From an uncultured Eubacteriales bacterium (GTDB taxonomy: Bacteria > Bacillota > Clostridia > Lachnospirales > Lachnospiraceae): a stretch of DNA of 64,000 nucleotides. The notes below the pieces were generated by a model. It did not search any database, was not told where the DNA came from, and saw nothing but the letters and a program-made list of their open reading frames with translations. Positions 36,847-62,204 of this stretch are shown here, in pieces (position 1 is the stretch's first letter; each line of letters begins with the position of its first letter). Made by a program: the position numbers and the translations under genes. The stretch is taken from NCBI GenBank assembly GCA_900314885.1, contig OMWY01000005.1:49481-113480 (forward strand), read 5' to 3'.

Positions 36847-36898
36847 ATTTCTAAACAATGTGTGCTATACACATTCACATCTTCATAGGAGGAGAACT

Positions 36899-42553: not shown

Positions 42554-43918
42554 ATGAGTAAGTTCAAATGTGAGGTTACTCTGCAGCAGGTTACGCCGAT
42601 GATTCACTTCCAGGCGGAAGACTACGGCGCTTGCCTGCGGGCAACAGATGTTAAACCCAGACTGGATTCATTTCTGCTGGAGCATGCCGATATCAAAAAA
42701 TCATGGTTTATTGATAAGAGTAAGAATGATGCCCTTGATTATCGGATGACGATTTCCATTGGAAATGCTCCAAAGGCGTCAATCACGACCTATAGACAGT
42801 CCGAGCTTGAAAGGATGAAGCGCAAGAGTGACAACGAAACCACTCGATATATTGATACGGTTCTTTCCAAAATTGAGAATGAATATCCAGCATATATAGA
42901 TAAAAAGACGCAAAGCAATCCCAAATCGTTCTTTGGGAACATGGTTGGCGGTTATGGGACAGAGAAGGTTGATGCAATCTCATCAGAGTATCGTGAGGGC
43001 ATACAATTTACAACGCCGATATCAATAACTTTGTTTTCGGCGCATACGGATCTTTTGAATTGCTTGAAAGATAATATTGAGGGTTTCTTCCTAATTAATA
43101 ATTTCGGAACCAGGTCGGATAAGGGCCTGGGTAGTTTCTATGTGAAAGCAATTGATGGAGATCCTGTTGATGAATCACGGATTGAAGATAAGATTACGGA
43201 TGCGGCAAAATCTCCGGTATATGTGATCAACTCCGGCTCAAATGCACTGGAAGTTATCCGATTGATTTATGCTTTTATGAAGGGCGGGATCAACTACACA
43301 ACAAAACCGGATAGCCCGGACGATTACTTTAAAGGTTTTATCTACAGATATTTCTTTAAGAATGGAGGATATTATAAAAAGAAATCAGAATCCCGTATTC
43401 CTAGAAATGATAAGGCTTTTATGAAGCGGGAACTTTTTCGAGACGGAAAAGCTTTAGACGATAATGACGAATCTGAAGATAGAGATAAAGCCGGCTATGA
43501 CAATGCAACTTATCTCTATATACGGGCTATGCTTGGTGTTCCTGATTATATGGAATTCCGGGATTCCAAGAGAAAAGGAAAGGTGAATATTGCTGCGGTA
43601 GACAAATCCGTAGAGAGAGTTCCGTCACCCATACTTTTTAAGGTATTGCCTGACCGTATATATATCATTCCTGGACAGATTGACAAGAGAGTCAGAGGAG
43701 CCACTTTTGAATTTTCAAAAAATGGACCGGCAAAGAAGATCTCTACTCCGGCTGATTTTGACTTAATAGATTTTTTGGATTCCTTTATGGAAGATTTTAA
43801 CGATAAAAAATCTCCTAAATGTGGCTCCATAGGTATAAAAGATGCAAAGAGCAAAGATATTGCAAAGATAAAGAACTGCACGATAGAAAAGATCAAATAC
43901 AAGGGAGGAGAGGTTTGA
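42554..43918 (+). CDS. cmr1: Type III-B RAMP protein Cmr1
   Basis: Cmr1 caps the Cmr complex at the crRNA 3' end. The 454-residue protein has two RAMP-like halves, with VTLQQVTPMIHFQAEDYGACLRATDVK at the start and the glycine-rich loop FLINNFGTRSDKGLGSFYV near residue 178. Its position directly before cas10, with cmr3-6 following in order, supports the assignment more than sequence similarity, which is weak. It ends in a TGATG overlap with cas10. Confidence 0.8.
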   Translation: MSKFKCEVTLQQVTPMIHFQAEDYGACLRATDVKPRLDSFLLEHADIKKSWFIDKSKNDALDYRMTISIGNAPKASITTYRQSELERMKRKSDNETTRYIDTVLSKIENEYPAYIDKKTQSNPKSFFGNMVGGYGTEKVDAISSEYREGIQFTTPISITLFSAHTDLLNCLKDNIEGFFLINNFGTRSDKGLGSFYVKAIDGDPVDESRIEDKITDAAKSPVYVINSGSNALEVIRLIYAFMKGGINYTTKPDSPDDYFKGFIYRYFFKNGGYYKKKSESRIPRNDKAFMKRELFRDGKALDDNDESEDRDKAGYDNATYLYIRAMLGVPDYMEFRDSKRKGKVNIAAVDKSVERVPSPILFKVLPDRIYIIPGQIDKRVRGATFEFSKNGPAKKISTPADFDLIDFLDSFMEDFNDKKSPKCGSIGIKDAKSKDIAKIKNCTIEKIKYKGGEV

Positions 43919-45462
43919 TGAACTATTACGGAATGACAGTCGGCCCGATCGTGGAAACAATCTCCGCCACTTCAAAACCGGCGGGCCTTTGGATGGCTAG
44001 TTACTTCTTCTCGACTGTAACCCGGGACCTGTGTGCCCGTTTTTCCGAGGAGCCTGGCGTTACAATCGTGTCCCCGTACTTTTCAAAGGAAGATGGTGGC
44101 AAACGTGATGGCATCGGCCGGTACAATGACCGCATCATCCTTCAGGTTGAAGAAGATGGAGACTTTTCCTTTGAAGAAAAACTGCAGAGTATTATTGAAG
44201 CTGTAAAGGAAGAAAAGGGAAAAGCAATCGCAGCTTGTCATGACAAGGCTTCGCAGGATGAAATTGTTGAATACATAAAGAAATATGTCTACGTTCAGTA
44301 CATTTGCATCCCGGAAAGCGGTATTGAGAACAATAACGTATTGGCGTCGGTTTCTTCGAAACTGGACGCCCTGGAGCTGATGCAGCCTACGCCTGCCCAG
44401 TTTGATCATCAATATCTGCAGGAGATTCTGGTAGATAATGAAAAAATAAAGGATTATGGAGAGTTTTCTGGGGCTAAGAGATTCCTGACCGGACACAATG
44501 AAAAGGTGAAAGATGTACAGGGAATTGCAGAATATCAGGACCATGATAGTGCTCTGAAATTCAGAAATTATTTCGCCATCGTATATGCAGACGGCGACCA
44601 TATGGGTACTGTTGTTAAAAAGCTGGCAAGAGACGATCTGAAACAGTCAATCGCGGCACAGAAGACATTTTCTAAAAAGTGCCTTGATTATACAGCCGGA
44701 AGTGCAGAACTGATCGTTCAGTATGGTGGCGTCCCTGTGTATGCAGGAGGCGACGACCTGCTTTTCATGGCACCTCTGGTCGGAAAGGAAGGGAAATCCG
44801 TATTTCAGCTTTGCGACGAAATCTCAGCTGAATTTAATAAAATTTTCAGTGAGGAACGGGATGAACTTAAGGAAAATGGGCCATCACTCTCTTACGGGAT
44901 TAGTATTAACCATTACAAGTTCCCTCTATATGAAGCAGTTGATGATGCCAGAAGACTGCTATTTGCTGAAGCCAAATGTGGAGAAGAAAAGCGGATTTAT
45001 AACAGCCTGGCTGTCAGATTGCGCAAAGCAAGCGGTCAATCCGAGGAATTTGTTCTGAAACAGGGCGGCGCGCTGGAAGCTGAGCTGGCAAAGCTGCTGG
45101 AAAGCAGATTCCTGAACTCTAATAAACAGGCAGAGAATGAAAATAAGAAAGCGCACGGAACTATTTTCACAATCGAGCGTTTCTCACCTTTTATTGATCA
45201 GCTGTGGGATGTGTCTCAGACACAGATTACGGATGCCAATCGAGCGGACGTATTTGGAAATTTCTTCGATAACGTACATCAGACGGTTGTAAATGACTGG
45301 ATCATGGATGTCCTGGCTTTGGGTGATGCAGCAGATAAAGATCAGAAAGATGGAAATCTGCGGATCAAAGAGGAAAACAGCGGAGCATCCGTTTCCGGAA
45401 CCATGGCAGCGATGCTCCGGTTGTGCAAGTTTTTCGTCGAAAAGAAGGGAGAAGAAGACTGA
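43918..45462 (+). CDS. cmr2: Cas10 (Cmr2), HD-less, with intact GGDD palm
   Basis: Cas10 is the large subunit; on target RNA binding its palm domain makes a nucleotide second messenger. I chose the ATG at 43918, which overlaps the cmr1 stop and follows GGAGGAG. The product has only 514 residues, against 800-900 in HD-bearing Cmr2, and starts at the linker or palm region without an HD nuclease. The first palm shows YFAIVYADGDHMG (residues 218-230) and the second the catalytic VYAGGDDLLFMAP (GGDD at 277-280). Signalling should therefore be intact while single-strand DNase activity is absent. Confidence 0.93.
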   Translation: MNYYGMTVGPIVETISATSKPAGLWMASYFFSTVTRDLCARFSEEPGVTIVSPYFSKEDGGKRDGIGRYNDRIILQVEEDGDFSFEEKLQSIIEAVKEEKGKAIAACHDKASQDEIVEYIKKYVYVQYICIPESGIENNNVLASVSSKLDALELMQPTPAQFDHQYLQEILVDNEKIKDYGEFSGAKRFLTGHNEKVKDVQGIAEYQDHDSALKFRNYFAIVYADGDHMGTVVKKLARDDLKQSIAAQKTFSKKCLDYTAGSAELIVQYGGVPVYAGGDDLLFMAPLVGKEGKSVFQLCDEISAEFNKIFSEERDELKENGPSLSYGISINHYKFPLYEAVDDARRLLFAEAKCGEEKRIYNSLAVRLRKASGQSEEFVLKQGGALEAELAKLLESRFLNSNKQAENENKKAHGTIFTIERFSPFIDQLWDVSQTQITDANRADVFGNFFDNVHQTVVNDWIMDVLALGDAADKDQKDGNLRIKEENSGASVSGTMAAMLRLCKFFVEKKGEED

Positions 45463-46562
45463 TGAGTACCTTTCTTTTAAAGTTTCGGCCGTTAGAGCCC
45501 TATTTCTTTGGTGAAGAAAAGAATATGGGCTTTGACAACATGGCAAAAGGTCCCGGAAAAGTTCTGACAAATGCCTATTTTATCAAATCCGGCAACCTGC
45601 CTTCTCCGGCAACTTTGGTAGGCGCTGTCCGCTATCTGGTTCTGAAACAGACGGCAGGACTTTCTTCAGACGGTGTGCATCTTACAGAAGAACAGACAGC
45701 TGCTGTAGGCGAGAGCAGTTTTAACCTCCTTGCGGAGGGACGGCAGGAGTTTGGTAAGATAAAAAATCTGGGCCCGGTGCATCTTTGTCAAGGTGATACG
45801 GAATACTTTAAAGTTCCTTATTTTCTGCATGAAACAGACGCTCACGGTATTGCCTCCTATCGGATGGAGGAGGCCGGAGAACGGGAGCACCAGAAAATTT
45901 TTCTCCCGACCGATTATGACGGAAAAGAAGGCCTGATCAGCGCTTATGTTTCCGCAGATGATAAGGCAGAACTGGTTCAGAGTTCAGATCTTTTCAGCCC
46001 GGCAATCAAGACCAGGATCTTAAAAGATAAAAGGAAAGATAATCAGAAAGACGCCTTTTTCAAGAAGGAGTACCGGCTGTTAGCAGAAGGATATTGCTTC
46101 TGTTGTGAGGCGGAGATCGACGGATGGACGCCGAAGTCAGATGTCGTTTATATGGGACAGGATAAGTCTTCCTTTGCTTTTTCAGCAGTTGAGAAAAAAT
46201 CAACCGATACGGCAAATAAGAGTCTTAAAAAACTTTGCGAAGAAAAGGCCGATGTTCCGGAAGGATTAATAGCAGCTGTGGCTCTGTCGGACGTCTATTT
46301 CCGGAAGCCGTATGAAAAGGCAGCGGATTTTGCAATCGCATCTTTCCGAAATTTTCGTTTTATGACGTCTGATCATACCGGTACAGGACAGAGCTACTAC
46401 GCCCGGCTGAGGAAAAGCAGTCTTTACCATTTGGCAGAAGCCGGAAGCACCTTCTATCTGACGAAAGATCAGTTACAGGATTTTCAGTCACTTTTTAACC
46501 CGGCGCTTTCCAGTGTGGGACTGAATACATTTATTTATATTGAAGGGAGAAATCATTCATGA
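45462..46562 (+). CDS. cmr3: Type III-B RAMP protein Cmr3
   Basis: Cmr3 binds the 5' handle of the crRNA together with Cas10. The start (LLKFRPLEPYFFGEEKNMGF...SGNLPSPATLVGAVRYLVL) is diagnostic for Cmr3. The ATG at 45462 overlaps the cas10 stop by one base. The length of 366 aa is typical. The C terminus (STFYLTKDQLQDFQ...GLNTFIYIEGRNHS) is the conserved end. Confidence 0.93.
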   Translation: MSTFLLKFRPLEPYFFGEEKNMGFDNMAKGPGKVLTNAYFIKSGNLPSPATLVGAVRYLVLKQTAGLSSDGVHLTEEQTAAVGESSFNLLAEGRQEFGKIKNLGPVHLCQGDTEYFKVPYFLHETDAHGIASYRMEEAGEREHQKIFLPTDYDGKEGLISAYVSADDKAELVQSSDLFSPAIKTRILKDKRKDNQKDAFFKKEYRLLAEGYCFCCEAEIDGWTPKSDVVYMGQDKSSFAFSAVEKKSTDTANKSLKKLCEEKADVPEGLIAAVALSDVYFRKPYEKAADFAIASFRNFRFMTSDHTGTGQSYYARLRKSSLYHLAEAGSTFYLTKDQLQDFQSLFNPALSSVGLNTFIYIEGRNHS

Positions 46563-47272
46563 ATGCCATCGTATATGAGATGAAGTGCCTTACCAATCTT
46601 CACGCAGGCAGCGGTGAAGCCAATTACAGCATCATTGATAATGAGGTCCAGAGGGATCCGGTGACAGGCTATCCCACCATCTTTTCGTCGGGCATCAAGG
46701 GTGCCATTCGGGAGTATTTCAAGCGACATGGGCTTTCCGAATCCTGCGCGGAATATATCGATATGTTTGGCTCAGAGCAGGGGGACGTACAGAATGAAAA
46801 GAAGGCAGGAACCAAACCGGGTTATCTGAAGTTCACCCAGGCCCATCTCTATGCTTTTCCCAGACGGGCGGAAGCCGGAGAAGCCGCCTATCAGATGACA
46901 ACCACCAACACTGCAGAGAAAGAACTGACAGATTTTCTTTCTGTCATAGGTGTACAGGACGAAAAGAAACCGTGTGAGGCGAAGGTCGCAGGTGAAGAGG
47001 AATTCCGAAAACTAATGAACCATCTTCCGGTTACGGCGAGAAACCAGCTGCAGAAAGGCATCAGCCAGAACCTCTGGTATGAAGAGATTGTTCCCCATGA
47101 AACGGTGTTCTGGTTTGCTGTCCTGTATGATGGCGGGGCAAAGACTGATGTTCTTACTTCCTTTGACAGCAGCCTGCTGACAGATGGGAAGGCAGTAATC
47201 CAATTCGGCGCAGATGCTTCCATCGGTGACGGCATCTGCCTTGTAAAGAAATTCTGTGAAGTAAAAGACTGA
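46559..47272 (+). CDS. cmr4: Type III-B RAMP protein Cmr4 (target-RNA nuclease backbone)
   Basis: Cmr4 forms the repeated backbone and cuts target RNA every 6 nt. The signature LTNLHAGSGEANYSIIDNEV followed by QRDPVTGYP lies at residues 11-38, with the catalytic Asp27 (IIDNEVQRD) present. SSGIKGAIREYF follows. At 237 aa it is somewhat short for the family. It overlaps cmr3 by four bases. Confidence 0.93.
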   Translation: MNAIVYEMKCLTNLHAGSGEANYSIIDNEVQRDPVTGYPTIFSSGIKGAIREYFKRHGLSESCAEYIDMFGSEQGDVQNEKKAGTKPGYLKFTQAHLYAFPRRAEAGEAAYQMTTTNTAEKELTDFLSVIGVQDEKKPCEAKVAGEEEFRKLMNHLPVTARNQLQKGISQNLWYEEIVPHETVFWFAVLYDGGAKTDVLTSFDSSLLTDGKAVIQFGADASIGDGICLVKKFCEVKD

Positions 47273-47287
47273 TTTCAGGAGGTGCGT

Positions 47288-47734
47288 ATGAATTCAAAAG
47301 AACGGATAGAGGATCTAATTCTTCCGGCTTGCATTGCAATTCGAGAGGTCTTTAAGGACGAGCTTTCTGCAGGAAAGGCTATTGACTCTAATGCCCGTAG
47401 CAAGATGTCCGCTTTTGGCGCCTCAATAGTGATGGGCTCGATGAAAGCAACAATAATGAATTATTGTAATGGCAATGCAGAAGATGGTGACATTAATAAG
47501 AAACTAATGGGTTGTCTTTGGCAGCTATTGAAAGAAGAGAAATGTTTTTCGCCTGAATTTAGGAGCCCGAAGATCTGTAGTGAAAATGGAATAGAGACTC
47601 TAAAAAAAATCGTGATGGAGGAAGATAATTCTGCGGACAAATATGAAGAGGACATTTTGACGGCGGCAACTGCTATTAAGATGGCGTTGAACCTCTTCCC
47701 GTTAAAGAAACAGAAAGAGGGGGCCTCAGAATGA
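47288..47734 (+). CDS. cmr5: Type III-B small subunit Cmr5
   Basis: Cmr5 is the helical filament subunit that lines target RNA. The 148-residue helical protein occupies the canonical place between cmr4 and cmr6. I chose the ATG at 47288 because AGGAGG ends 5 bases before it; a GTG at 47282 lies within that site. Its ATGA overlap with cmr6 shows coupling. Identification rests on position, size and helicity. Confidence 0.82.
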   Translation: MNSKERIEDLILPACIAIREVFKDELSAGKAIDSNARSKMSAFGASIVMGSMKATIMNYCNGNAEDGDINKKLMGCLWQLLKEEKCFSPEFRSPKICSENGIETLKKIVMEEDNSADKYEEDILTAATAIKMALNLFPLKKQKEGASE

Positions 47735-48780
47735 ATGCAAATTATATCTATAATGTCCAATATTCCGAAGAGGCGGCGGCCATTGCGTATGCCGAGGGAA
47801 ATAATGCAGCTGACGCAAAGGGAATGTCAGAAAAGAACCAGACATATCTTACCAATATCAATGCTGCAATATCCGGTGCCATCATTCAGCAGGGAGGGCA
47901 GGAAGACGACGCCCTTCCGCTTACGCATATCCGAATGAAGACCTCATATCCTGGGGTTTTGATTGGCACGGGTAGTGCACATGAAACCGGAGCAAAGAAT
48001 GAGATGCTCCTCGGTTTTACACTGGACTACGTGACAGGAATTCCTTATCTTCCAGGAAGCTCTCTTAAGGGACTTCTGAGGAGCGCATTTCATTTTGGTG
48101 ATAGTGAAAAAAATGAAACGGAATATGTCCGGGAAACACTTTCCACGATAGTTGGAAATGAAGTCAGTAAAGAGAATGTAACTGACCTTGAAACTGCACT
48201 TTTTGCAGATCCGGATAATGGGATTGTTTTCCTGGATTCATTCATTCAGGGGATGACTACCGATGCTGGTGAAAATGCTGCCTATATGGGACTTGATTAT
48301 ATTACTCCTCACAAGGGCGACATGCTGAAGAATCCTATCCCGCTTCCAATCCTCCGGATTAACCCCAACGTGGTCTTTGACTTCCGCTTTTATCTGCAGG
48401 ATGTAAAAACTGAAGATGGCAAAGTATTCCAGGTAGACACGATTAAAAATCTTTTTATAGAGATTCTGAAGGACTTTGGCATTGGCGCAAAGACGCATGT
48501 CGGATATGGTGTACTTGAAGAGTATAAACCACAGGAAATCAATGTTGACTCCATTGTTTCGGGTAAGGTGGAAAGCTTTGGGGCCGGAAATTCCGGATTA
48601 AATATTGACTTGGGTAACGGCAAGAAAGGATATGTCAACAAAAAGGATGCACTTGAGAATAAAAATGATGATTTGACACTTAAATTCAGTATCGGAGAAA
48701 GAATCAAAGCAAAGGTAAAGGAAATTAAAGAGTCTGGAAAGATCATTCTTACAATGAAGGATATGGGTGGCGATAAATAA
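47731..48780 (+). CDS. cmr6: Type III-B RAMP protein Cmr6 with C-terminal S1-like domain
   Basis: Cmr6 closes the backbone next to Cmr1. Residues 60-265 form the RAMP core, with GIPYLPGSSLKGLLRSAF (103-120) and the glycine loop GIGAKTHVGYGVLEEY (250-265). Residues 272-343 add an S1/OB-like domain (VDSIVSGKVESFGAGNSGL...GYVNKKD...GERIKAKVKEIKESGKIILT). S1 domains bind single-stranded RNA and are not part of textbook Cmr6. The tail could contact crRNA or target RNA at the 3' end of the complex. Confidence 0.88.
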   Translation: MNANYIYNVQYSEEAAAIAYAEGNNAADAKGMSEKNQTYLTNINAAISGAIIQQGGQEDDALPLTHIRMKTSYPGVLIGTGSAHETGAKNEMLLGFTLDYVTGIPYLPGSSLKGLLRSAFHFGDSEKNETEYVRETLSTIVGNEVSKENVTDLETALFADPDNGIVFLDSFIQGMTTDAGENAAYMGLDYITPHKGDMLKNPIPLPILRINPNVVFDFRFYLQDVKTEDGKVFQVDTIKNLFIEILKDFGIGAKTHVGYGVLEEYKPQEINVDSIVSGKVESFGAGNSGLNIDLGNGKKGYVNKKDALENKNDDLTLKFSIGERIKAKVKEIKESGKIILTMKDMGGDK

Positions 48781-48781
48781 T

Positions 48782-51004
48782 ATGCTGAAAGAATTTGATC
48801 TCTGGCTCGATGAGAGCGGAAAGTTTGCTAATGAAAGAGAAACAGTCAATATAGGTTATAAGCCATCCCTTATAGGTGGATGGCTTATGCCTCATGACAG
48901 GTACAAAGAAAGTGACTTTGCTGATATGGTGGTGGAATCAGGTTCGGCGGAAGGATATCATTCCGCCGGGTTAACACGAGAGCAAAAAAATAAAGAGGTA
49001 ATACCGACCCTTGTCCGCATGCATAATGAGTTTGGTGGCAGAATGTTCTTTGTTGAGAATAAAGAAGTAAGACAGTATGGAGGCAATAAAGAGCTATACC
49101 TCACTATGATGGCTTATGGCCTGCTTCATCTGCTTCAAACCCTTAATGCTGTCTGTGAAAGCGTTCACCTTTACGTGACTATAGCCAGGCGCGTAGACGT
49201 CAAAGGAGACGCAATGATTGAGATAACTGATGAAGAATACGAGAAACGTCTGAACGCTGTTATCCGGGCAGAAAAAGCCGCAGGTCACATAATACTTGAT
49301 AACGATACACAGATGGAATTTCATATCGATTCCGCCCGTACAAATACCAAACTCAAAATGGCGGATTACGCATGTAACGCTGAATTAACGATAAATTCCG
49401 GCATGTTTACTGATGCTTCACGCCTAAAATTTTTTGAAATAAGGAATGATGCTATCATATGCTCATTCGTGGAAAATTATGAGGAAAATCGTATCCGTCA
49501 ATACCTTACAACTGATAATGTAGCTGATGCTTTATTTGACGCTACGGCAAGTCACCAGAAGTCATTACTTGAAAATATGCTCCCTGATATAATAAGCCGC
49601 CTTACTAATTTCGGTTACAGAAGCGCAAAAGTCCAACTCGATCAGTGTGTGAGAGAATTTACCACAGACGCGTATATGGAAGATGATTTTGAAGATGGCG
49701 AAAGGATTATGAGAAATCTCATAGACGTTGTCATTCCCGCTATGTATAAAGAAAAACTTCCATGTGAAAAGCTCCATTTCGCTGCTGAACTAAACCTTAC
49801 CGATATGTACCTGAGGGAAGGAAATCTTAGTGAAGCAGTTAAAGAGATAATGAAATGCGAAGAAGCTCAGAAAAAGCTACCAGCAAGTCTTGAAAATATA
49901 CTCGCTTATTATCAGCTTATCGAAAAACAGGGATTATGTGAGATAGATTTTTTTGAGTTTCAAAAAGGATACGAGACTATGGGGAAGGCCTCGAAGGTAT
50001 TTGAAGAGGCAATTGACGCACTTGAATTATCAAAGGTAATTCATGAAAGATATCCAAGCCTTATATCCGAATACTATGGCGACGCCCTCTGCATGAAAAT
50101 ATACGCCGGAATGCTAGCACAGAGGCAGAATCCAAAACTTTATGATGAACTGGTTCATGATTCGGATATAGCGCTGCTTCAGTATGGACCTCATGAGGGA
50201 GAACTTGAGCGACACAGACAGTACAGGGCATTTATAGAGGCTCAGGCCGGTCATATCTATGAAGCATGTGTGTGGCTATTTATGACACAGCTTCCGGAAG
50301 TTGATAATAGATGGCTTAATGAAAAACATGACATTAATAAAGCTCTTTGTGGCAAGTTCATTAATGAAATTAATACAGGCGAGATTCAGGCGTCCAGACT
50401 TTATTATTTAATGTATTATACCAGAATAATGGCTGAAGCTTTCGAACATGGAAACGAACTTGCGAATGTCATGCTAAGCGCACTCTCTACTTCTGAGACG
50501 GAAATAGAACCCGATGAGATGGAAGATCAGATACATGTTAACGCCAGAGGTAAAAAAATCAAGACAACGGTTGTGGACGCCATCAACAATGTAATTGATA
50601 AGGATACGGGATTCGAGTATCACCCAAGTGAATCAATTTACTGGCGAACTGCTTACAGTCTCTATATGGCGAATAAAAAAGTTGAAGCACATGAAATGTA
50701 TGAGCAGGCTATCTTCGTATGTTTTAATAATAAAGAATACCTTCAGCTTATGGTCACAGGCTTGGCAATACAGGCAGAACGACTTGCACTATTATATAAT
50801 GAAAACAGTAAAAGTTCAAAGGAGAAGGCTGAAGTTATTCGCAAAAAATTGGTAAGAGAGATTGAAATAGTGAATAAAGCCTTAGACAAAGTGAGTATAA
50901 ATTTTATAGCGGCTTATACTAAGGAATTATCAGACGAAATTAAAGATGTAAATAATTGTGATTGGAGAAAACTGTGGAAGACCTCAAGAAAGATTTCGTT
51001 TTGA
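48782..51004 (+). CDS. DUF3800-like domain plus helical repeat (TPR-like) protein, CRISPR-associated, unknown function
   Basis: The first ~245 residues resemble DUF3800: FDLWLDESGKF at residues 5-15 (the Asp-Glu-Ser-Gly motif), a central YLTMMAYGLLHLLQ helix and STARTN-like ARTNTKLKMADYACNAELT near 190, in place of the usual ADL segment. DUF3800 has an RNase H-like fold and is a suspected nuclease. Residues 250-740 are a helical array that looks like TPR repeats. The gene sits inside the operon, 2 bases after cmr6, and overlaps the DEDDh gene by 31 bases. A GTG at 48767 is an alternative start. It is not a standard Cas protein. Confidence 0.6.
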   Translation: MLKEFDLWLDESGKFANERETVNIGYKPSLIGGWLMPHDRYKESDFADMVVESGSAEGYHSAGLTREQKNKEVIPTLVRMHNEFGGRMFFVENKEVRQYGGNKELYLTMMAYGLLHLLQTLNAVCESVHLYVTIARRVDVKGDAMIEITDEEYEKRLNAVIRAEKAAGHIILDNDTQMEFHIDSARTNTKLKMADYACNAELTINSGMFTDASRLKFFEIRNDAIICSFVENYEENRIRQYLTTDNVADALFDATASHQKSLLENMLPDIISRLTNFGYRSAKVQLDQCVREFTTDAYMEDDFEDGERIMRNLIDVVIPAMYKEKLPCEKLHFAAELNLTDMYLREGNLSEAVKEIMKCEEAQKKLPASLENILAYYQLIEKQGLCEIDFFEFQKGYETMGKASKVFEEAIDALELSKVIHERYPSLISEYYGDALCMKIYAGMLAQRQNPKLYDELVHDSDIALLQYGPHEGELERHRQYRAFIEAQAGHIYEACVWLFMTQLPEVDNRWLNEKHDINKALCGKFINEINTGEIQASRLYYLMYYTRIMAEAFEHGNELANVMLSALSTSETEIEPDEMEDQIHVNARGKKIKTTVVDAINNVIDKDTGFEYHPSESIYWRTAYSLYMANKKVEAHEMYEQAIFVCFNNKEYLQLMVTGLAIQAERLALLYNENSKSSKEKAEVIRKKLVREIEIVNKALDKVSINFIAAYTKELSDEIKDVNNCDWRKLWKTSRKISF

Positions 51005-51525
51005 AAGACAAGGGCTTTTTTGTCATCGACTGCGAAACGAACGGCCTTTATGGACCATTTCTTACAGCAGCTGTCGTTGTTACGGACCACGAGCTGAATA
51101 TTACCGGAAGATATTACTACGGAGCATCAGAGACCATCACAAAAGCTGAAAATCCCTGGGTGCTTGAGCATGTAATACCTATCCTGGGGAATTATGAAGA
51201 CTGTCGGACGGAATCAGGACTCTATGAAAAGGTCTGGAATCTCTGGTCGGATTACCGGGCAGATCACTATGCCATCGCTGATGTGAATTTCCCTGTTGAA
51301 AATCGCTTTTTCACGAACTGTGTTGAAATAAATCGTCCGGCCCGGGAGCAGATGGCTCCTTTCCCTCTCCTGGATCTTTCCAGTTTCCTGTTCCAGAGGG
51401 GGATAGACCCGCTGGCCCCACGCCTGGAACTTTCCGGCCTGCAGGCTGACAATCAGCACAATGCTCTGTTCGATGTTGAGATGACCGTTGCCGTAATGAA
51501 AAAACTATGGGAGAACAAGCTATGA
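50974..51525 (+). CDS. DEDDh-type 3'-5' exonuclease (DnaQ/oligoribonuclease-like)
   Basis: ExoI is FFVIDCETNG (Asp and Glu), ExoII is HYAIADVNFPVE (Asp) and ExoIII is NQHNALFDVEMT (His and Asp with HxxxxD spacing), so all DEDDh residues are present. I chose the GTG at 50974 because GGAG lies 6 bases upstream; a TTG at 50962 is the alternative. The 183-residue protein is a stand-alone domain. It precedes the CorA-like gene with an ATGA overlap. Candidate roles are degrading the Cas10-made messenger or trimming prespacers for Cas1-Cas2; sequence alone does not decide. Confidence 0.87.
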   Translation: MEDLKKDFVLKDKGFFVIDCETNGLYGPFLTAAVVVTDHELNITGRYYYGASETITKAENPWVLEHVIPILGNYEDCRTESGLYEKVWNLWSDYRADHYAIADVNFPVENRFFTNCVEINRPAREQMAPFPLLDLSSFLFQRGIDPLAPRLELSGLQADNQHNALFDVEMTVAVMKKLWENKL

Positions 51526-53018
51526 GAATGAAGTCAGAGGATTATAAGGCAAAGAGCATTCATATTTTTGCGTTACCATTTAAATTCAAATCAGCCCAGG
51601 AAAAAGCTTCTTTTCAGTACCAGACGATGGTTGAAAGGCTGATTGTTTTGGGTTGGCAGAATGCTTCATTATCCCTTTCTGATGTGGATGATTATGCAGT
51701 TGACCAGTATATGTCCGGCCAGGCAAAACAGATATTCTGGGAGAAAAGCAAAGGAGATCAATATCTTCCGTGCAGCGTTCTTCAGTATGGAGAGAGTGAA
51801 AAACAACCGCTATTTTTCCATATGGAGAAAGATGATTTTAAAGCATCTTTACTGATTTCAGGGCTTGAAATCCATATTTATCAAGATGGTTATGGGATAT
51901 TGTTTATCAAGACGCTCAATTTTCTTGATGACATAGATCGAATTAGGCCGATTAACCATTATGGCAGACGGTTCCTGTTGCCGTTTATCCCCGCTACTCC
52001 CGCTGGCTATTCTTTGGCGGCAGACAAAATAGGGATAGAGGATTTGCGTGGCAAGTTAAAAGGAACCATTACGAATTATAAGCTTGATATTGAGAAATAT
52101 TTAAGATCAGATAATGAAGAGAGGATATTGATTGGGAAAAATTTCTCTTCAATTCCTTACTTTTTATTTTATCTGTTGAACCACGGAACGGTTCAAGAGC
52201 AATGGGTGATCAATCAAACGGATATTGAAGACATTTCTGATGAAAGAATGTTTCTGTTTTGCCTTGTGCGGAATGACGCTATGTCTGGAAAGGTAAAGTA
52301 TAATTGTGACAGTTCGTTTCGCAATGAACTTTATAAGTTGATTTTCGCTGATACTGACGATGCAACCTGTCAAGATGACGATATGCGAGACCGACTTCTA
52401 AAGGAGGCCATTTACCCCAGATGGAGAAAGTGGGGGACGATTCAGGCGGTTACGAATACCGGGATGTTTTGCATTACGTCAACCTACGCAGGAATAAATG
52501 ACAGCGTAATCAAGCCGTTTGTGACGGAATATCTTTACATGTATTCTCTAGTCCTGGCACAGCACATGGGAATTATGCTGTTCTCCGAACGAGCAGGAGA
52601 TATTGGAAAACATATTATTGGGAAAATCAAAACTAGAGAACATAGGGAACTGGTTAGCTTACAAAAGGAATATGTGGTCTTCAAAAATCAAATGCTGATT
52701 TTGGATTTTACCTATCAAGAGCAGGGTTCTGAATTATATGAACTGATTCAGAAGCAGATGCGTATTGATGAAGAAGAAGCAATTTTGGATGAGCAGTTGG
52801 AAAGTCTCTATGAAATTACTAACGTAAGCAATGATATTAGCTTACAGACTATTGCGGCTGTATTAGCAATTTTCGCAATAGCAGTTGACGTGATACTCAA
52901 TGTATTTATTTCCGGAAAAGAATTTACCTGGTGTGAAATAGCACAGATTTCTTTGGTTACATTAATTGTTACAGCTGTTGCTATTGTAACGGCAATTAAA
53001 CATCTTGGGGAAAAATAG
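51522..53018 (+). CDS. CorA-like CRISPR ancillary membrane protein
   Basis: The 498-residue protein has a large cytoplasmic part ending in a long helix (KEYVVFKNQMLILDFTYQEQG...DEEEAILDEQLESLYEI) and two C-terminal membrane helices (IAAVLAIFAIAVDVILNVFI and ISLVTLIVTAVAIVTAI, about residues 448-493). This is the CorA plan, but the GMN pore motif after the first helix is missing (it reads FISGKE). CorA-like proteins of this kind accompany type III-B Cmr operons, and in Bacteroides fragilis one responds to SAM-AMP. I chose the ATG at 51522, which overlaps the nuclease stop and has GGGAG 8 bases upstream. Confidence 0.78.
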   Translation: MRMKSEDYKAKSIHIFALPFKFKSAQEKASFQYQTMVERLIVLGWQNASLSLSDVDDYAVDQYMSGQAKQIFWEKSKGDQYLPCSVLQYGESEKQPLFFHMEKDDFKASLLISGLEIHIYQDGYGILFIKTLNFLDDIDRIRPINHYGRRFLLPFIPATPAGYSLAADKIGIEDLRGKLKGTITNYKLDIEKYLRSDNEERILIGKNFSSIPYFLFYLLNHGTVQEQWVINQTDIEDISDERMFLFCLVRNDAMSGKVKYNCDSSFRNELYKLIFADTDDATCQDDDMRDRLLKEAIYPRWRKWGTIQAVTNTGMFCITSTYAGINDSVIKPFVTEYLYMYSLVLAQHMGIMLFSERAGDIGKHIIGKIKTREHRELVSLQKEYVVFKNQMLILDFTYQEQGSELYELIQKQMRIDEEEAILDEQLESLYEITNVSNDISLQTIAAVLAIFAIAVDVILNVFISGKEFTWCEIAQISLVTLIVTAVAIVTAIKHLGEK

Positions 53019-53019
53019 T

Positions 53020-54003
53020 ATGTCTGTCATTTATATTCGTGAGCAGGGTAGTACGGTAAAGCGGTCGGGAGACCGCCTGATTGTGAGCAAGCAACGTCAA
53101 AATGTACTCGAAATTCCGATATTTCAGGTGGACAGTCTTGCCGTGATGGGAAACGTGACAGTGACGACTCAGGCTATGTCACTTCTTATGGAGCGAGGCA
53201 TTGACATAAACTATTTTTCGTACTCGGGTAAGTTTATCGGAACAATGAGTTCAGATTCCGGGAAAAATATTTTCCTGCGCCTTGCCCAATACGAACTGTA
53301 TCAGAATATAGACAGGCGTCTGGCTCTGGCTCGTATCATTGTAGCCAATAAGGCAGACAACCAATTGCGGATGATTTGCGACAGGGACTGGCGAACCGCC
53401 GGTAATCCCAACTATGACTGGAAGAAGGATGCGGATGCGATTCGGAGGCTTAAGGAGAAGATACCGACCGCTAAGAATAATAATGAACTGATGGGCATAG
53501 AAGGCTCCTGCAGCAAGGCATATTTCTCAGCCTTTGGAGCGATGCTTACAGGAGACTTCAAATTTAACGGAAGAAACCGACGACCACCAAGAGATCCGGT
53601 GAACATACTGCTAAGTCTTGGATATACGTTCCTTGTTAAGGAAGTCAGCTCGGCGCTTCAGGTTCATTCCTTTGAGATGTATCTGGGCTTTCTTCACGGG
53701 ATACGTTATGGCCGCCAGTCGCTTCCGCTGGATATGATGGAGGAATTTCGCCAGCCGATTGTGGACCGCTATGTGTTGAATGTATGCGGTAAAAGAATAA
53801 TAAACAGTTTTGACTTTGACATGTCCGGCGAGCTGCCGGCTCTGACGGATGAGGGCTTTAAGAAGTTCTGCGTCACTTACGAAGACTGGTTGAAGTCAGG
53901 AGAAAACGGGGGCAACAGGGCACTGATCAAGAAACAGGCAGCAGCGTTGAAGCAAACAGTACTGAAGGGCATAGAATACTGCCCGTATTCAATGGGGGTT
54001 TGA
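53020..54003 (+). CDS. cas1: CRISPR integrase Cas1
   Basis: Cas1 integrates prespacers into the array with Cas2. The metal-binding residues are visible: Glu in LMGIEGSCSKAYFSAFG (near residue 165), His in GFLHGIRYGRQSLPLDM (near 230) and Glu in MEEFRQPIVDR (near 245). The ATG at 53020 is chosen after a GGGG site; an in-frame start at 53005 gives five extra residues. It is a stand-alone Cas1 of 327 aa, not fused to the reverse transcriptase, and is followed one base later by cas2. Confidence 0.97.
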   Translation: MSVIYIREQGSTVKRSGDRLIVSKQRQNVLEIPIFQVDSLAVMGNVTVTTQAMSLLMERGIDINYFSYSGKFIGTMSSDSGKNIFLRLAQYELYQNIDRRLALARIIVANKADNQLRMICDRDWRTAGNPNYDWKKDADAIRRLKEKIPTAKNNNELMGIEGSCSKAYFSAFGAMLTGDFKFNGRNRRPPRDPVNILLSLGYTFLVKEVSSALQVHSFEMYLGFLHGIRYGRQSLPLDMMEEFRQPIVDRYVLNVCGKRIINSFDFDMSGELPALTDEGFKKFCVTYEDWLKSGENGGNRALIKKQAAALKQTVLKGIEYCPYSMGV

Positions 54004-54004
54004 A

Positions 54005-54289
54005 ATGTACTTTGTGAGCTATGACATTTCATCAAACAAGTTGCGAAAGAAGGTCGCGGACCTGTTGGAGGACTATGGCATTCGCATTCAATACAGCGTA
54101 TTTGAATGCGATCTGGATACCAGAAAATACCGCGAACTCTATGCAAAGATGACGAAATTGACAGCGGATATGCAGGACGGAAGCGTGATATTCTGCCCGA
54201 TTTGTGACAAATGCTATTCGAAAAAGAGGGTTATAGGGGATGCTGTTCCTACAGCACGTCATGACAGTGATGAGGTGATTGTCATATGA
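54005..54289 (+). CDS. cas2: CRISPR adaptation protein Cas2
   Basis: The 94-residue protein has the ferredoxin-like Cas2 fold start MYFVSYDISSNKLRKKVADLLEDYG and IQYSVFECDLD. It bridges two Cas1 dimers. The C terminus carries a CPICDKCYSKK cysteine set that could bind zinc. It overlaps the RT-primase gene by four bases. Confidence 0.96.
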   Translation: MYFVSYDISSNKLRKKVADLLEDYGIRIQYSVFECDLDTRKYRELYAKMTKLTADMQDGSVIFCPICDKCYSKKRVIGDAVPTARHDSDEVIVI

Positions 54290-57120
54290 GCATGTACAAC
54301 AGAATTATCGATATACAGAAATTGAATGCCGCCTGGGACAAAGTACGGAAGAATAAGCCGGCAAAGGGGGTGGACGGCGTCACATGGGATGAGTTTGATA
54401 AGAACCGTAAGGCAAATATCACTGAGATATTCGGAGAACTTCAGAACCATACGTTTTCGGTCACTCCGGTCAAGAAGGTAACGCTCTATAAGGGCGAGAA
54501 AGCCAGAGACATCATGCTCTATTCCATGCGGGATAAAGTCGTGCAGGAATCCATAGCGGAAGTTCTGACGAAGATGTATGACAATTCGTTCTCGAATGCC
54601 TGTTATGCTTACCGTCCGGACAAATCTGCCCTGAATGCAGTCGCATCCATAGCGGAGGTTGCAGCAGATTCGAAATACAGCTGTTTTGTCAAGGCAGATA
54701 TTGAGCATTTCTTTGACCATATCAAAGCCGAGAAGTTGGAAGGTATACTTCGAAACCGGATTCAGGAAGATGATGTGATTGACCTTATCATGTCGCAGGC
54801 CGCAGCTCCCATGCTGGTGGAGGATGGAAGCATCCGCCCTTGTACAGACGGCGTACGGCAAGGTTCGGCGATTGCTCCGGTGCTTTCAAATATATATATG
54901 ATGAACCTGGACAATGACATGACCAGGGCTGAAGGCTTATATGCCCGCTATAGTGATGATGTTTTGATACTGGCTTCGGATATGGATTCTGCCCATCAGC
55001 AGCTGAATCGCTTCATTACTCATATAGAAGCATTGGGCCTGTCTATAAACACGAAGAAGACGGCCATTGGAAATATTGCGGATGGCTTCGAATTTCTCGG
55101 ATATCATTTCGACAAATCCGGAAAAGAAATACCTTCGAAGGCGGAAAACTCCCTTACAGAGCGCTTGGAAGGCATGTGGCTGACATCGAAGAACATGAAG
55201 ATTACGGAAAAACTGGAAAAGGCCTCAGAAATTGTTAATGGCTGGGAGCAGTATTTCCGTGGTGACAGAAAACCATCATCCATGTATGAATACGCAACGG
55301 TCCTGTATATGACCTATCACCGCGGATATGACGGGGAAAATGACTTTGTTGCCCTACGCCGTGATTATCATAATGAAAATATGGAACTGCTGAAATGGAT
55401 GGTCTCGGTATGGGAACAGGAAAAGCGCCCGGACATGAAACTGTTGGAATATGAAGATTTCTTTGAAATCAGCCGAGATGATACAGTTGCAGCTCCTTCT
55501 GTTGATTTCTTAACAGATGCTTGCGAAATCTTTAAAAGGCTCATAATTGCTGAAACAACGGATGACTGGGAAAATCTGATGCAGTTCTATTCGGATGAAG
55601 GCTTCTATTCCGGTGCATCGTCCATATCGGAGCGGATTGCACGTCTGGAGCAGCGGGCTGAGGAGGAAAGAACACCTGAGGTCTCCTATCATTCGGAGGA
55701 AGTAAAAAACGGAGCCCCTATTATTCTGAACGGGAAGAACCTGGAAGACTATATGCGGCTTTTCGTCGGTCGGGACGAACTGTATGCGGAAGAAGTCTTT
55801 CAACCCGGCAAAGGACGGAAGAGTGATCAGGTGCTGGAACCTTTGACTGCAGAGGTGGTGAAGGACCATCTGAAAGGAACACGGACGATTGACACGGTCA
55901 TCGTGCGGAACAATTCTACGGTCCATTATCTGGTCATCGACTTTGATATATCGAAGAAGCATTTGCTGGAGGATAAGCCGGGGGCTGCTGATGCGAATCT
56001 GGAGAGTTATCTTCAGAAAGCGATGGACCTCACGCAAAAGTACAGAAGAATAATATCAGACCTGGGGTTGACGGCTTATCCGGAAGACAGCGGGTATCGG
56101 GGCTTTCATCTGTGGGTATTCTTTGACGAATGGATCCCAATCCGATATATCAATATGCTCACAGATATCATAGAAAACAAGGCCCACGACTTGCGCAGTG
56201 AAGACATTACAGTGGAATATTTCCCAAACAAGACCAGGATTAAACCGGGAAAGTTCGGACAGATGATTAAGCTGCCCTATGGAGTTCATTGCAAGAGCGG
56301 CCGCCGCAGTGTCATGCTGGATAAGAATTTTCAACCAATCAATGATCCAGCAGAGTTTATGAAAGGCGTCGCTAAATTTTCTGTTAGCAACGTGAAAAAG
56401 ATTTTGGGCTCTTCTGACTTTTCTATCGAAAGAGTAAGGGAGATTGATGAAGACATTTCTCCTTTGGGAAAGGTTCCGGAGAGCATATCTTTGGTATTGA
56501 AGAATTGCGCTTTGATGCGCTATCTTTGTATGAAAGCTGTTAAAACAGGATATCTTGCTCATCTTGAAAGGTTATCGATATTGTATGTATTTGGCCACAT
56601 GGGAGATGATGGTAAGGACTTCGTTCATCAGGTGATGAAGTTTACTATGAATTATTCATATCAGACGACTCAGTATTTTATCTCCCGGCAAAAAGGAAAG
56701 CCAATAAGCTGCAGTAAGTTGCGTGACCAATACCAGCGCCTGACGGCGGAAATAGGTTGCAGTTGCAGCTTTCAGAGGACTAAGGATTGCTATCCGTCTC
56801 CTGTGATTCACGCATTACAGAAGCTATCGGGAGATGACGCTCAGGGGATAACAATGCCTACCAGCAGGACCTTAACGAAGGAATCTTCTGAGGCGCTATT
56901 TGACAGATTGAATAATAATCAGAAGGTAACTGAAATTGCTAAGAAGATTTTGAGCCTGAAGAAACAGAAGCGCGGGATTGATAGAAATATAGTTAAACTT
57001 GAGGATGAGCTGGCTCGGCTATACGATGAGGCACATGTTGAGGCTATGGAATGCGACCTTGGTGTCCTCGTGAGAAGGAAAAAATCTGACGGAAATTATG
57101 AATGGGTTATTGAAATATGA
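54286..57120 (+). CDS. Reverse transcriptase - Prim-Pol (archaeo-eukaryotic primase) fusion with Cys-rich PriL-like tail
   Basis: The 944-residue protein has three parts. Residues 10-325 are a group II intron-type reverse transcriptase: GVDGVTWDEF (28-37), FVKADIEHFFDHI with Asp138, RQGSAIAPVLSNIYM (191-205) and the catalytic ARYSDDVLILA, where YSDD (222-225) replaces YADD. Residues 480-700 are an archaeo-eukaryotic primase: LVIDFDIS (Asp552, Asp554), YRGFHLWVFF (His608) and VMLDKNF (Asp679, possible third metal ligand). Residues 730-845 carry spaced cysteines (741, 748, 809, 825, 827, 835) reminiscent of the PriL Fe-S domain. The ATGA overlap with cas2 places it in the adaptation module. I infer it copies captured RNA or fills in single-stranded prespacers for Cas1-Cas2. 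Confidence 0.9.
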   Translation: MSMYNRIIDIQKLNAAWDKVRKNKPAKGVDGVTWDEFDKNRKANITEIFGELQNHTFSVTPVKKVTLYKGEKARDIMLYSMRDKVVQESIAEVLTKMYDNSFSNACYAYRPDKSALNAVASIAEVAADSKYSCFVKADIEHFFDHIKAEKLEGILRNRIQEDDVIDLIMSQAAAPMLVEDGSIRPCTDGVRQGSAIAPVLSNIYMMNLDNDMTRAEGLYARYSDDVLILASDMDSAHQQLNRFITHIEALGLSINTKKTAIGNIADGFEFLGYHFDKSGKEIPSKAENSLTERLEGMWLTSKNMKITEKLEKASEIVNGWEQYFRGDRKPSSMYEYATVLYMTYHRGYDGENDFVALRRDYHNENMELLKWMVSVWEQEKRPDMKLLEYEDFFEISRDDTVAAPSVDFLTDACEIFKRLIIAETTDDWENLMQFYSDEGFYSGASSISERIARLEQRAEEERTPEVSYHSEEVKNGAPIILNGKNLEDYMRLFVGRDELYAEEVFQPGKGRKSDQVLEPLTAEVVKDHLKGTRTIDTVIVRNNSTVHYLVIDFDISKKHLLEDKPGAADANLESYLQKAMDLTQKYRRIISDLGLTAYPEDSGYRGFHLWVFFDEWIPIRYINMLTDIIENKAHDLRSEDITVEYFPNKTRIKPGKFGQMIKLPYGVHCKSGRRSVMLDKNFQPINDPAEFMKGVAKFSVSNVKKILGSSDFSIERVREIDEDISPLGKVPESISLVLKNCALMRYLCMKAVKTGYLAHLERLSILYVFGHMGDDGKDFVHQVMKFTMNYSYQTTQYFISRQKGKPISCSKLRDQYQRLTAEIGCSCSFQRTKDCYPSPVIHALQKLSGDDAQGITMPTSRTLTKESSEALFDRLNNNQKVTEIAKKILSLKKQKRGIDRNIVKLEDELARLYDEAHVEAMECDLGVLVRRKKSDGNYEWVIEI

Positions 57121-57305
57121 ATTCTGATATGTTATAATTTACTTGTATTTGTCCTTTGAAAACTTAATAAGGGGACGGAATACGTGGACGCAATTAAGAA
57201 AAACCAAATTGTGTCTGAATTGTATGAATTTTTGCCCAAAACAAAAAATTATCCCAGAAATATACCTCTGAAATTCGCTGATAATGGGCATTGCTGGAGG
57301 GTGCT
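57110..57305 (+). promoter_or_regulatory. CRISPR leader with promoter
   Basis: TTGAAA (57110-57115) and TATAAT (57133-57138) are 17 bases apart and would transcribe the array from about 57145. The leader ends at the first repeat at 57306. A repeat-like word, CTGATAATGGGCATTGCTGG (57278-57297), resembles the 3' half of the repeat and may guide integration. Confidence 0.7.
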
Positions 57306-57309
57306 ATGA
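57184..57309 (+). other. 41-codon ORF in the leader ending in repeat 1
   Basis: A GTG with an AAGGGG site upstream opens a 41-residue frame (KKNQIVSELYEFLPKT...NYPRNIPLKFADN) that stops at the TGA formed by the first bases of repeat 1. It reads like the start of a longer protein, similar in feel to the N terminus of some abortive-infection proteins, though I am not sure of this. It may be a gene remnant into which the array was built. Confidence 0.35.
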
Positions 57310-59363
57310 AAATGAATATTGCCCCTGATGGGCATTGATACTTACTAGTAGGATCATAAAACTCATCAGAACCATCAATGAAAATGAATATTGCCCCTGA
57401 TGGGCATTGATACTAGAGAATTACTTCTCCTTGAAGATGTCATGCGCAACTATGAAAATGAATATTGCCCCTGATGGGCATTGATACTCCGCCAAGTGAC
57501 ACGTCCTTCTTTTCTATTCCCAACGCTTTCGCGAGGTTTGAGAAATGAAAATGAATATTGCCCCTGATGGGCATTGATACTCGTCTGTGGTATCAAGCGA
57601 TAGAACTTATAGTTGTTGGCGATGAAAATGAATATTGCCCCTGATGGGCATTGATACCAGCGACCTTCATACTACAAGCCTTCGCGTACAATGAAAATGA
57701 ATATTGCCCCTGATGGGCATTGATACACCTGGCTCGCGTCCATGCCGGTTTTGTTCTCGCTATGAAAATGAATATTGCCCCTGATGGGCATTGATACTCA
57801 AAGCTGTAAGCACATCGTGCTTTGAAGGCTATGAAAATGAATATTGCCCCTGATGGGCATTGATACACAGTGTTAATGACATCTTTTTCGTTTCTGAAGA
57901 ACATGAAAATGAATATTGCCCCTGATGGGCATTGATACTTAGCTACCGGAAATGTATATTTATTGGGCATGAAAATGAATATTGCCCCTGATGGGCATTG
58001 ATACCCATATTTCCCTTACCGGCATCTGTGAAACGGTCAGATGAAAATGAATATTGCCCCTGATGGGCATTGATACCCGTTCTTTCGAAATGACATAGGG
58101 CCACTATAGATGAAAATGAATATTGCCCCTGATGGGCATTGATACTGAATGAAAAATCGTGCCAATACTTGGTTAAAGCTATGAAAATGAATATTGCCCC
58201 TGATGGGCATTGATACTTCTGATTTTGCTCTTCCATTGAATAGGCAAATTATGAAAATGAATATTGCCCCTGATGGGCATTGATACTCCTTCTTCAATGG
58301 AGGCCCTATTGTTCAAATAGATAATGAAAATGAATATTGCCCCTGATGGGCATTGATACCACAACTGTAAACAGGATACTTTGCGAACGATTCGATGAAA
58401 ATGAATATTGCCCCTGATGGGCATTGATACATTTAACATAACTTTTCTCCTTTGTTTTAAATAAAATGAAAATGAATATTGCCCCTGATGGGCATTGATA
58501 CACATTCGTAACAATAGTTACTGCACTGCAAAGTACCATGAAAATGATTATTGCCCCTGATGGGCATTGATACTCCTCTTTTTGAAGTTCTTCGAGCTCA
58601 TCGACCCACATGAAAATGAATATTGCCCCTGATGGGCATTGATACCTCGAAGTTCGGTAGTCTCAAAATCTTTCAGGACAAATGAAAATGAATATTGCCC
58701 CTGATGGGCATTGATACCTCGAACCAGGCCAGTGGCCGCCCTCTTCCATATGAAAATGAATATTGCCCCTGATGGGCATTGATACTCTGTGCTTTCTGTT
58801 AAGCTCAACATAATACTTCAATGAAAATGAATATTGCCCCTGATGGGCATTGATACTAATCTCTTATGCCACGATTTATTATATTGCCTGACGGATGAAA
58901 ATGAATATTGCCCCTGATGGGCATTGATACAGCATTCCTGTATTTGTAATGTCCAAAGTCGCTGCTCAATGAAAATGAATATTGCCCCTGATGGGCATTG
59001 ATACCTACGGTCGCGCCGAAGCCAAAGTAGACCTTCTTCCATGAAAATGAATATTGCCCCTGATGGGCATTGATACCCATTGTTTTCTCCTTTCTTATCG
59101 TTCTTCAGCCTATGAAAATGAATATTGCCCCTGATGGGCATTGATACACTTTGAAAAGTATGACTTGGTAGGCTGGGACTTATGAAAATGAATATTGCCC
59201 CTGATGGGCATTGATACCAGACAATACCAGCGCCACAATATCCGTCGAAGTCAATGAAAATGAATATTGCCCCTGATGGGCATTGATACATTTCTCTCAG
59301 GTCATTGAACTCAGGATTTCAGGCTAATTGAAATGGTCATAGAGCCCGATAGGGCATTGACAC
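57306..59363 (+). CRISPR. Type III-B CRISPR array, 29 repeats and 28 spacers
   Basis: Twenty-eight 36-base repeats begin ATGAAAATG, contain the hairpin TGCCC-CTGAT-GGGCA, and end ATTGATAC. They start at 57306, 57378, 57452, 57545, 57622 and so on to 59254. A degenerate 29th repeat at 59328-59363 keeps the GGGCATTGA end, which marks the leader-distal end on the right. Spacers are 30-41 bases except the third, which is 57. Repeat 18 (58538) has one A-to-T change at its 11th base. The ATTGATAC end, matching the usual ATTGAAAC handle, shows crRNA is read from the + strand, in line with the cas genes. Confidence 0.98.
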
Positions 59364-60678: not shown

Positions 60679-60679
60679 C

Positions 60680-61750: not shown

Positions 61751-61751
61751 G

Positions 61752-62204
61752 ATGAGTGATAAAAGAAAGCCGGAAGTCACAAGTAAAATAATGTCTTCTA
61801 TCCGTTCTAAGAACACGAAGCCTGAAATAATGCTGAGGAAGGCTCTTTGGAGAAAAAATTACCGATACAGGGTGAATTATAAGGAACTTCCCGGTAAACC
61901 TGATATTGTATTTACAAGACAAAAGGTTGTGGTTTTCTGTGATGGTGATTTCTGGCATGGTCACAATTGGGCAGTGCGCGGTATGGACTCTCTTGAAGAA
62001 GAACTTGCCGGATATTCGCCATATTGGCAGAATAAGATCAGGAAAAATGTAGAACGTGATATCAGAGAGGATAAGGAATTGTGGAATCTTGGATGGCGTG
62101 TGGTGAGAATATGGACGAGCGATATTGAGAAGTATCTGGATGAGTGCGTGAGAACCGTGGAGGAAACATTGTTTGATGCCGAGATTGATAATGAATATCA
62201 CTGA
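61752..62204 (+). CDS. vsr: Very short patch repair endonuclease Vsr
   Basis: Vsr nicks T:G mismatches that arise when 5-methylcytosine deaminates. The family start MSDKRKPEVTSKIMSSIRSK and KNTKPEIMLRKALW is followed by GKPDIVF (catalytic Asp near residue 51) and VVVFCDGDFWHGHNW. I chose the ATG at 61752; the frame extends upstream to 61731 but would overlap the nuclease gene. It offsets the mutagenic cost of the adjacent methylase. Confidence 0.95.
   Translation: MSDKRKPEVTSKIMSSIRSKNTKPEIMLRKALWRKNYRYRVNYKELPGKPDIVFTRQKVVVFCDGDFWHGHNWAVRGMDSLEEELAGYSPYWQNKIRKNVERDIREDKELWNLGWRVVRIWTSDIEKYLDECVRTVEETLFDAEIDNEYH

Follow-up and report, generated by a model that had tools for sequence, protein, structure and literature searches.

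A CART-CAPP fusion with conserved reverse transcriptase and Prim-Pol active sites in a type III-B CRISPR locus

Why would a CRISPR adaptation module carry a reverse transcriptase (RT) and a primase-polymerase (Prim-Pol) in one polypeptide, and does the Prim-Pol half still work? The question is raised by a fusion protein, here termed RT-CAPP (CAPP, CRISPR-associated primase-polymerase), encoded in a 64,000-nucleotide stretch of an uncultured Lachnospiraceae bacterium (the window; GCA_900314885.1, contig OMWY01000005.1, positions 49,481 to 113,480). RT-Prim-Pol fusions have been described as the RT type of CAPP_A (Zabrady 2021, PMC8211822), and CART-CAPP proteins, consisting of RT, Prim-Pol and a C-terminal domain (CTD), have been characterized (Zabrady 2023, PMC10415136). 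The authors of the 2023 study considered the reason for Prim-Pol retention unclear, and proposed redundancy and loss-of-function mutation. Judged by sequence, conservation of the Prim-Pol site is about as strict as that of the RT site in 199 fusions, and the Prim-Pol half of RT-CAPP is predicted to work catalytically.

Architecture and active sites of RT-CAPP

RT-CAPP combines an RT, a linker, a Prim-Pol domain, a cysteine-containing CTD and a short tail (Table 1). Its Pfam matches were RVT_1, AEP-TOTE and the Gam/Gp157-TOTE tail, and it scored 238.4 bits against NF040561 (CRISPR-associated primase-polymerase type A1, NCBIfam; cut-off 200). Alignment to the Marinitoga CAPP placed all three Prim-Pol motifs, defined as I (hhhDhD/E), II (sxH) and III (hD/E) (PMC10345425), at LVIDFD, GFH and VE (Glu644), and these were conserved among relatives. 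A full-length AlphaFold model built from 61 sequences had a mean pLDDT of 82; residues 2-331 matched group II intron RT, and residues 481-713 matched the Prim-Pol of the Marinitoga CAPP. These results agree with a preliminary description of this DNA, which had proposed an RT, an AEP primase with its fold at residues 480-700 and a cysteine-rich CTD in one open reading frame (ORF), and whose named residues are all in place. That description had also regarded an RT-PriS-PriL-like chain beside a Cmr operon with a CorA-like gene as unusual; novelty of the chain itself is not supported, as CART-CAPP is already in print and 198 RT-first fusions were found. A reading of the protein as a novel architecture was rejected for the same published precedents.

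The linker was mostly helical in the model, designed TPR proteins were matched there by a diverse family profile, and relatives such as P0125, P0126 and P0304 matched TPR-protein models in the same stretch. Because the linker is TPR-like and the Prim-Pol matches that of Marinitoga CAPP, RT-CAPP reads as an RT placed before a complete TPR-CAPP; the Marinitoga protein (TPR-AEP-CTD; 7nqd, 7nqe, 7nqf, 7p9j) itself lacks an RT. RT-CAPP resembles the CART-CAPPs of Caloramator australicus (CCJ33120) and Geobacillus lituanicus in having an N-terminal group II-like RT, a Prim-Pol and a C-terminal domain beside cas1-cas2. However, the Caloramator protein has 713 residues compared with 944 here, and its RT match starts at residue 62 of RT-CAPP. 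Like RT-Cas1 and Cas6-RT-Cas1 (7kft), RT-CAPP carries a CRISPR-associated group II-like RT of adaptation, but the RT in those proteins is fused to Cas1, whereas in RT-CAPP it is joined to a Prim-Pol, with Cas1 encoded separately.

Since the PDB matches listed for the full-length model were to RT or Prim-Pol, the CTD was predicted alone. This model had a pLDDT of 93.5 and matched photolyase/cryptochrome and PriL iron-sulfur domains; Foldseek returned no match for it at E 0.001 or better. The predicted CTD fold may thus be akin to that of the PriL iron-sulfur domain, and the CTD probably carries an iron-sulfur cluster. The four cysteines were kept in 198, 198, 198 and 197 of the 198 RT-first fusions, and a cysteine-containing PriCT-like CTD has been noted in print for the Marinitoga CAPP. 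As in PriSL, a Prim-Pol is joined by a PriL-CTD-like domain with four conserved cysteines, of which the first two spacings (68 and 16) resemble those of yeast Cys336-417-434 (81 and 17). Unlike PriSL, RT-CAPP is a single chain, and its fourth cysteine lies 2 residues after the third, as opposed to 40 in yeast.

Relatives were gathered by three protein searches, the first of which contributed the best 120 of 330 matches, and by translation of five loci, giving 321 proteins with RT-CAPP included. Both the RT and the Prim-Pol profile were matched by 199 of these (the first search supplied 120, RT-CAPP included, the second 7, the third 67 and the loci 5); 198 are RT-first and one, P0316, is AEP-first. 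The set holds no identical sequences and some close pairs, and P0003, a shorter call of the same ORF, was excluded from the count. Asp552, Asp554 and His608 of the Prim-Pol were complete in 197 of the 199 fusions, the remaining two being P0313, whose sequence ends before the histidine, and P0128, discussed below. The RT residues Asp138, Asp224 and Asp225 were aspartate in every sequence covering them except P0125, P0126 and P0304, which have Asn at 225 (YxDN for YxDD); the Prim-Pol triad is intact in these three, and their RT may be impaired. Six sequences, truncated or interrupted, lack one or more of the RT positions. The catalytic aspartate pairs, whose loss in close homologues would have told against the preliminary description, are therefore retained in nearly all relatives.

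Ten of the 230 Prim-Pol columns reach 98% conservation, and Asp552, Asp554, His608 and Glu644 are among these ten. The triad was likewise kept in 59 of 60 representatives of Prim-Pol clusters at 45% identity, from which short sequences were left out. Mean pairwise identity in the close clade of 61 sequences was 0.51 for the RT, 0.44 for the Prim-Pol and, highest, 0.66 for the CTD; the linker was the least conserved part (0.30). Because overall conservation in this clade is lower for the Prim-Pol than for the RT, conservation of the Prim-Pol catalytic residues is site-specific. The widely complete triad and the high rank of the catalytic columns argue against an inactive Prim-Pol as a rule of the family.

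Proposed function and rival explanations

On balance, we lean toward a model in which a CART-CAPP-type fusion in a III-B locus turns captured RNA, and also single-stranded DNA, into duplex DNA that Cas1-Cas2 would use as prespacers. The RT would self-prime on RNA and make first-strand complementary DNA (cDNA), by analogy with the RT domains of Caloramator and Geobacillus, which primed de novo, with RNA and DNA, and extended in vitro (PMC10415136). Since the Marinitoga CAPP primes on DNA and not efficiently on RNA, the Prim-Pol would prime the second strand on the cDNA, helped by the PriL-like CTD holding the initiating nucleotide. The TPR-like linker and the Gam-like tail would probably hold partners or nucleic acid, and the duplex would be handed to Cas1-Cas2 for insertion. 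Of the schemes that give work to both conserved sites, this sequential one is the simplest. Conversion of RNA to duplex prespacers with self-priming, as the preliminary description had suggested, is plausible by analogy; the published self-priming is an RT activity, and the Prim-Pol part and the resulting division of labor are what we infer. A more specific reading, a single-chain RNA-to-duplex-DNA writer in which the RT makes the first strand and a still-active Prim-Pol gated by a PriL-type iron-sulfur domain primes the second, is put forward tentatively. If true, it would mean that the logic of replicative primases has been built into a reverse transcriptase, and would overturn the view of the CART-CAPP Prim-Pol as a dead remnant. 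The conservation of both sites, together with named natural proteins in which either one appears lost, makes the question left in 2023 on the retained Prim-Pol testable, and could account for how RNA is turned into the duplex that Cas1-Cas2 requires.

The spacers of the adjoining array were examined for strand bias. The target strand was assigned by analogy, the end of the repeat being what we take to be the CRISPR RNA (crRNA) tag. For 20 of 27 spacers (p 0.019), this strand had the more coding-like sequence, as scored by a classifier that picked the sense strand of 291 among 363 control fragments. The corresponding figures were 8 of 9 for the array of a relative's locus, L039 (duplicates removed; p 0.04; model trained on the RT-CAPP genome), and 8 of 12 (p 0.39) for the III-A array of the same genome as RT-CAPP, which by eye has no RT among its cas genes. 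Purine bias of the spacers gave 17 of 24 in a sign test (p 0.06) and p 0.002 in a t-test on the same values. Open frames in the spacers (48 forward and 51 reverse) gave no strand signal, and Shine-Dalgarno sequences with a start codon, found in two forward (s14, s15) and three reverse (s3, s16, s25) spacers, were uninformative. Type III interference requires crRNA antisense to transcripts; therefore, stored spacers should be mostly antisense to genes, and the coding bias suggests that this is so here. No protospacers were found in plasmids or elsewhere in the genome itself (best E 1.28), phages gave one insignificant match (E 0.6), and four of the 27 spacers, searched as exact patterns of 22-25 nucleotides, matched no viral contig. 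The array repeat, at up to 3 mismatches, occurred nowhere else in the genome.

Several observations weigh against the sequential model. Selection alone can explain the coding bias of the array, because acquisition by the Marinomonas RT-Cas1 shows only a weak antisense bias, whereas type III spacers have to be antisense to function (PMC5576922). The Prim-Pol was reported inactive in both fusions tested (PMC10415136), whereas both active sites of RT-CAPP are complete in its sequence; the two published fusions are absent from the set of 199, and neither was identified in a protein search or in alignments from the PDB, where the Caloramator RT is entry 8bgj. In P0128, Arg, Thr and Val replace the Prim-Pol Asp, Asp and His, and similarity searches under-sample degenerate Prim-Pols. 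One rival explanation is an RT that does the priming and both strands, next to a catalytically silent Prim-Pol kept for nucleic-acid binding or docking. The biochemistry of the Caloramator and Geobacillus proteins, the hypothesis of its authors that the Prim-Pol is commonly inactive (PMC10415136) and the retention of the RT triad in P0128 speak for this reading. However, the triad is near-complete and stands among the ten most conserved columns, and a silent domain should lose catalytic residues on more than one occasion, although degenerate domains are under-sampled; we regard this explanation as rather unlikely.

The two sites might instead be used in parallel, the RT for RNA-derived and the Prim-Pol for DNA-derived prespacers (gap filling, end repair), with the fusion merely tying both to Cas1-Cas2. 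RT-less CAPPs act as DNA-dependent primases and as polymerases that displace strands, and the domain order, an RT set before a TPR-CAPP, is consistent with such use; yet the Caloramator RT domain also copies DNA templates (PMC10415136) and leaves no obvious need for a separate DNA polymerase, which makes parallel use improbable in our view. We would be surprised if RT-CAPP were a defense RT of the UG10 kind that had drifted beside cas genes and had no part in adaptation. PADLOC RT_UG10 models do match its Prim-Pol-CTD region, and P0316 has the AEP before the RT, the order that we assume to define UG10. In RT-CAPP, however, this order is reversed, the ORF overlaps cas2, and the order cas1, cas2, RT-CAPP recurs in three relatives' loci (L001, L038 and L039).

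Locus and gene neighborhood

The gene order is cas6, cmr1-6, a 745-aa protein, a DEDD-like gene, corA, cas1, cas2, RT-CAPP and the array. RT-CAPP adjoins cas1-cas2 on the same strand in a layout that reads as operonic, and its start codon overlaps the cas2 stop as ATGA. ORF and profile matches bear out the preliminary description on this overlap and on the placing beside a Cmr operon and a CorA-like gene.

Table 1. Features of the RT-CAPP locus, in positions of the window
Feature	Position	Strand	Basis or remark
cas6	41603..42553	+	PF10040, PADLOC Cas6
cmr1	42554..43918	+	PADLOC Cmr1, 222 bits
cas10/cmr2	43819..45462	+	TIGR02577, Cas10-Cmr2_palm2
cmr3	45423..46562	+	PADLOC Cmr3
cmr4	46559..47272	+	TIGR02580
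cmr5	47282..47734	+	PADLOC Cmr5
cmr6 with C-terminal S1 RNA-binding domain	47731..48780	+	TIGR01898 68-262; PF00575 271-343
745-aa protein of unknown family, between cmr6 and DEDD-like gene	48767..51004	+	
DEDD-like exonuclease	50962..51525	+	weak: RNase_T E 0.0054 (below cut-off), PADLOC DEDDh E 0.0029
CorA-like effector	51507..53018	+	PADLOC CorA, 182 bits; no Pfam match
cas1	53005..54003	+	PF01867, TIGR00287
cas2	54005..54289	+	PF09827, TIGR01573
RT-CAPP (CART-CAPP) fusion, 944 aa	54286..57120	+	ORF, family profiles
RT domain, residues 1-330	54286..55275	+	Asp138 at 54697-54699, YSDD at 54949-54960
Helical linker, TPR-like, residues 331-479	55276..55722	+	model helices, family profile
Prim-Pol (AEP) domain, residues 480-710	55723..56415	+	DFD at 55939-55947, His608 at 56107-56109, Glu644 at 56215-56217
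PriL-CTD-like domain, residues 725-860	56458..56865	+	conserved Cys741, 809, 825, 827
Gam/Gp157-like tail, residues 865-944	56878..57117	+	PF22709
Leader region	57121..57305	+	by position only, stop codon to first repeat
CRISPR array	57306..59289	+	28 repeats of 36 nt, 27 spacers of 30-57 nt

The presence of Cas10/Cmr2 with Cmr1 and Cmr3-6 assigns the effector to type III-B. As in the CorA-1 type III-B SAM-AMP systems (Chi 2023, PMC10600005), a Cmr operon and adaptation genes occur together with corA and a neighboring DEDD-like gene; SAM-AMP signaling pairs CorA with an NrN or DEDD phosphodiesterase, and here the CorA match is clear and that of the DEDD neighbor is weak (E 0.003-0.005). CorA in type III-B, also beside a DEDD gene, is a published arrangement. 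A figure legend in that article gives adaptation by cas1 or RT-Cas1, plus cas2, whereas here it is cas1, cas2 and RT-CAPP. The 745-aa protein matched no PADLOC family at E 0.01, and Pfam gave only TPR_2 (E 0.34); it is a candidate for a new ancillary component of CorA III-B loci. By eye, its start (LDESG, GGWL) is reminiscent of what we take to be DUF3800-type proteins.

In the literature, as judged from listings, the starts of abstracts and passages, with supplements and most subscription journals outside that scope, no report was found of Prim-Pol site conservation across CART-CAPPs or of an RT-CAPP with CorA. A word search of the accessible text of three RT surveys did not find "primase," and the main text of a 2025 CRISPR classification paper contains neither "primase" nor "CAPP."

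Upstream of the cas genes lies an Hsp70 fused to two AAA domains with AAA lids (36860-40156); a cytosine methylase, a type II restriction enzyme and a Vsr-like nickase follow directly 3' of the array (59449-62204).

Relatives and distribution

In L038 and L039, the protein ahead of cas1 is CARF-HEPN (Csx1-like), and its L001 counterpart is 50% identical to both. Effector type was read in three relatives' genomes, G267 (L038), G272 and G1100, with G092, G446 and G509 left out; the effector genes are type III-D in look, with Cas7 in G267 and Cas10, Cas5 and Cas7 in G272 and G1100. Since these three are III-D and the locus here is III-B with CorA, the adaptation module appears to have moved from one effector type to another.

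RT-CAPPs are uncommon. Scores above the cut-off of the NF040561 model occurred in 4 of 397 genomes from the same taxonomic family, 3 of 398 from the phylum and 1 of 391 from the class, with the RT-CAPP genome counted each time, and the named genomes yielded one related locus, L001. At least 5000 plasmid records matched RT-CAPP, none covering 80% of the query, and among the 30 matches listed only the N-terminal part was matched, up to residue 394. Prim-Pol and CTD (residues 449-944) had no match in phages.

Some relatives departed from the common architecture. P0316 is a 1688-aa Melioribacteraceae protein with a weak 15-bit match to the CTD profile; P0127 has an FHA domain ahead of the RT (precomputed Pfam); and, by eye, the N-terminal parts of P0124 and L034 include hydrophobic stretches. 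The RT-CAPP of G1100, which falls below the model cut-off, consists of two overlapping ORFs (L041; L061:1908-4755) with the break just after Prim-Pol motif I, and may represent a pseudogene, a sequencing error or a frameshift. The genome encoding RT-CAPP also contains a second type III locus (L062, C8) with a Cas10 palm match, III-A by eye, which has cas1-like and cas2-like ORFs of its own as well as an array of 13 repeats.
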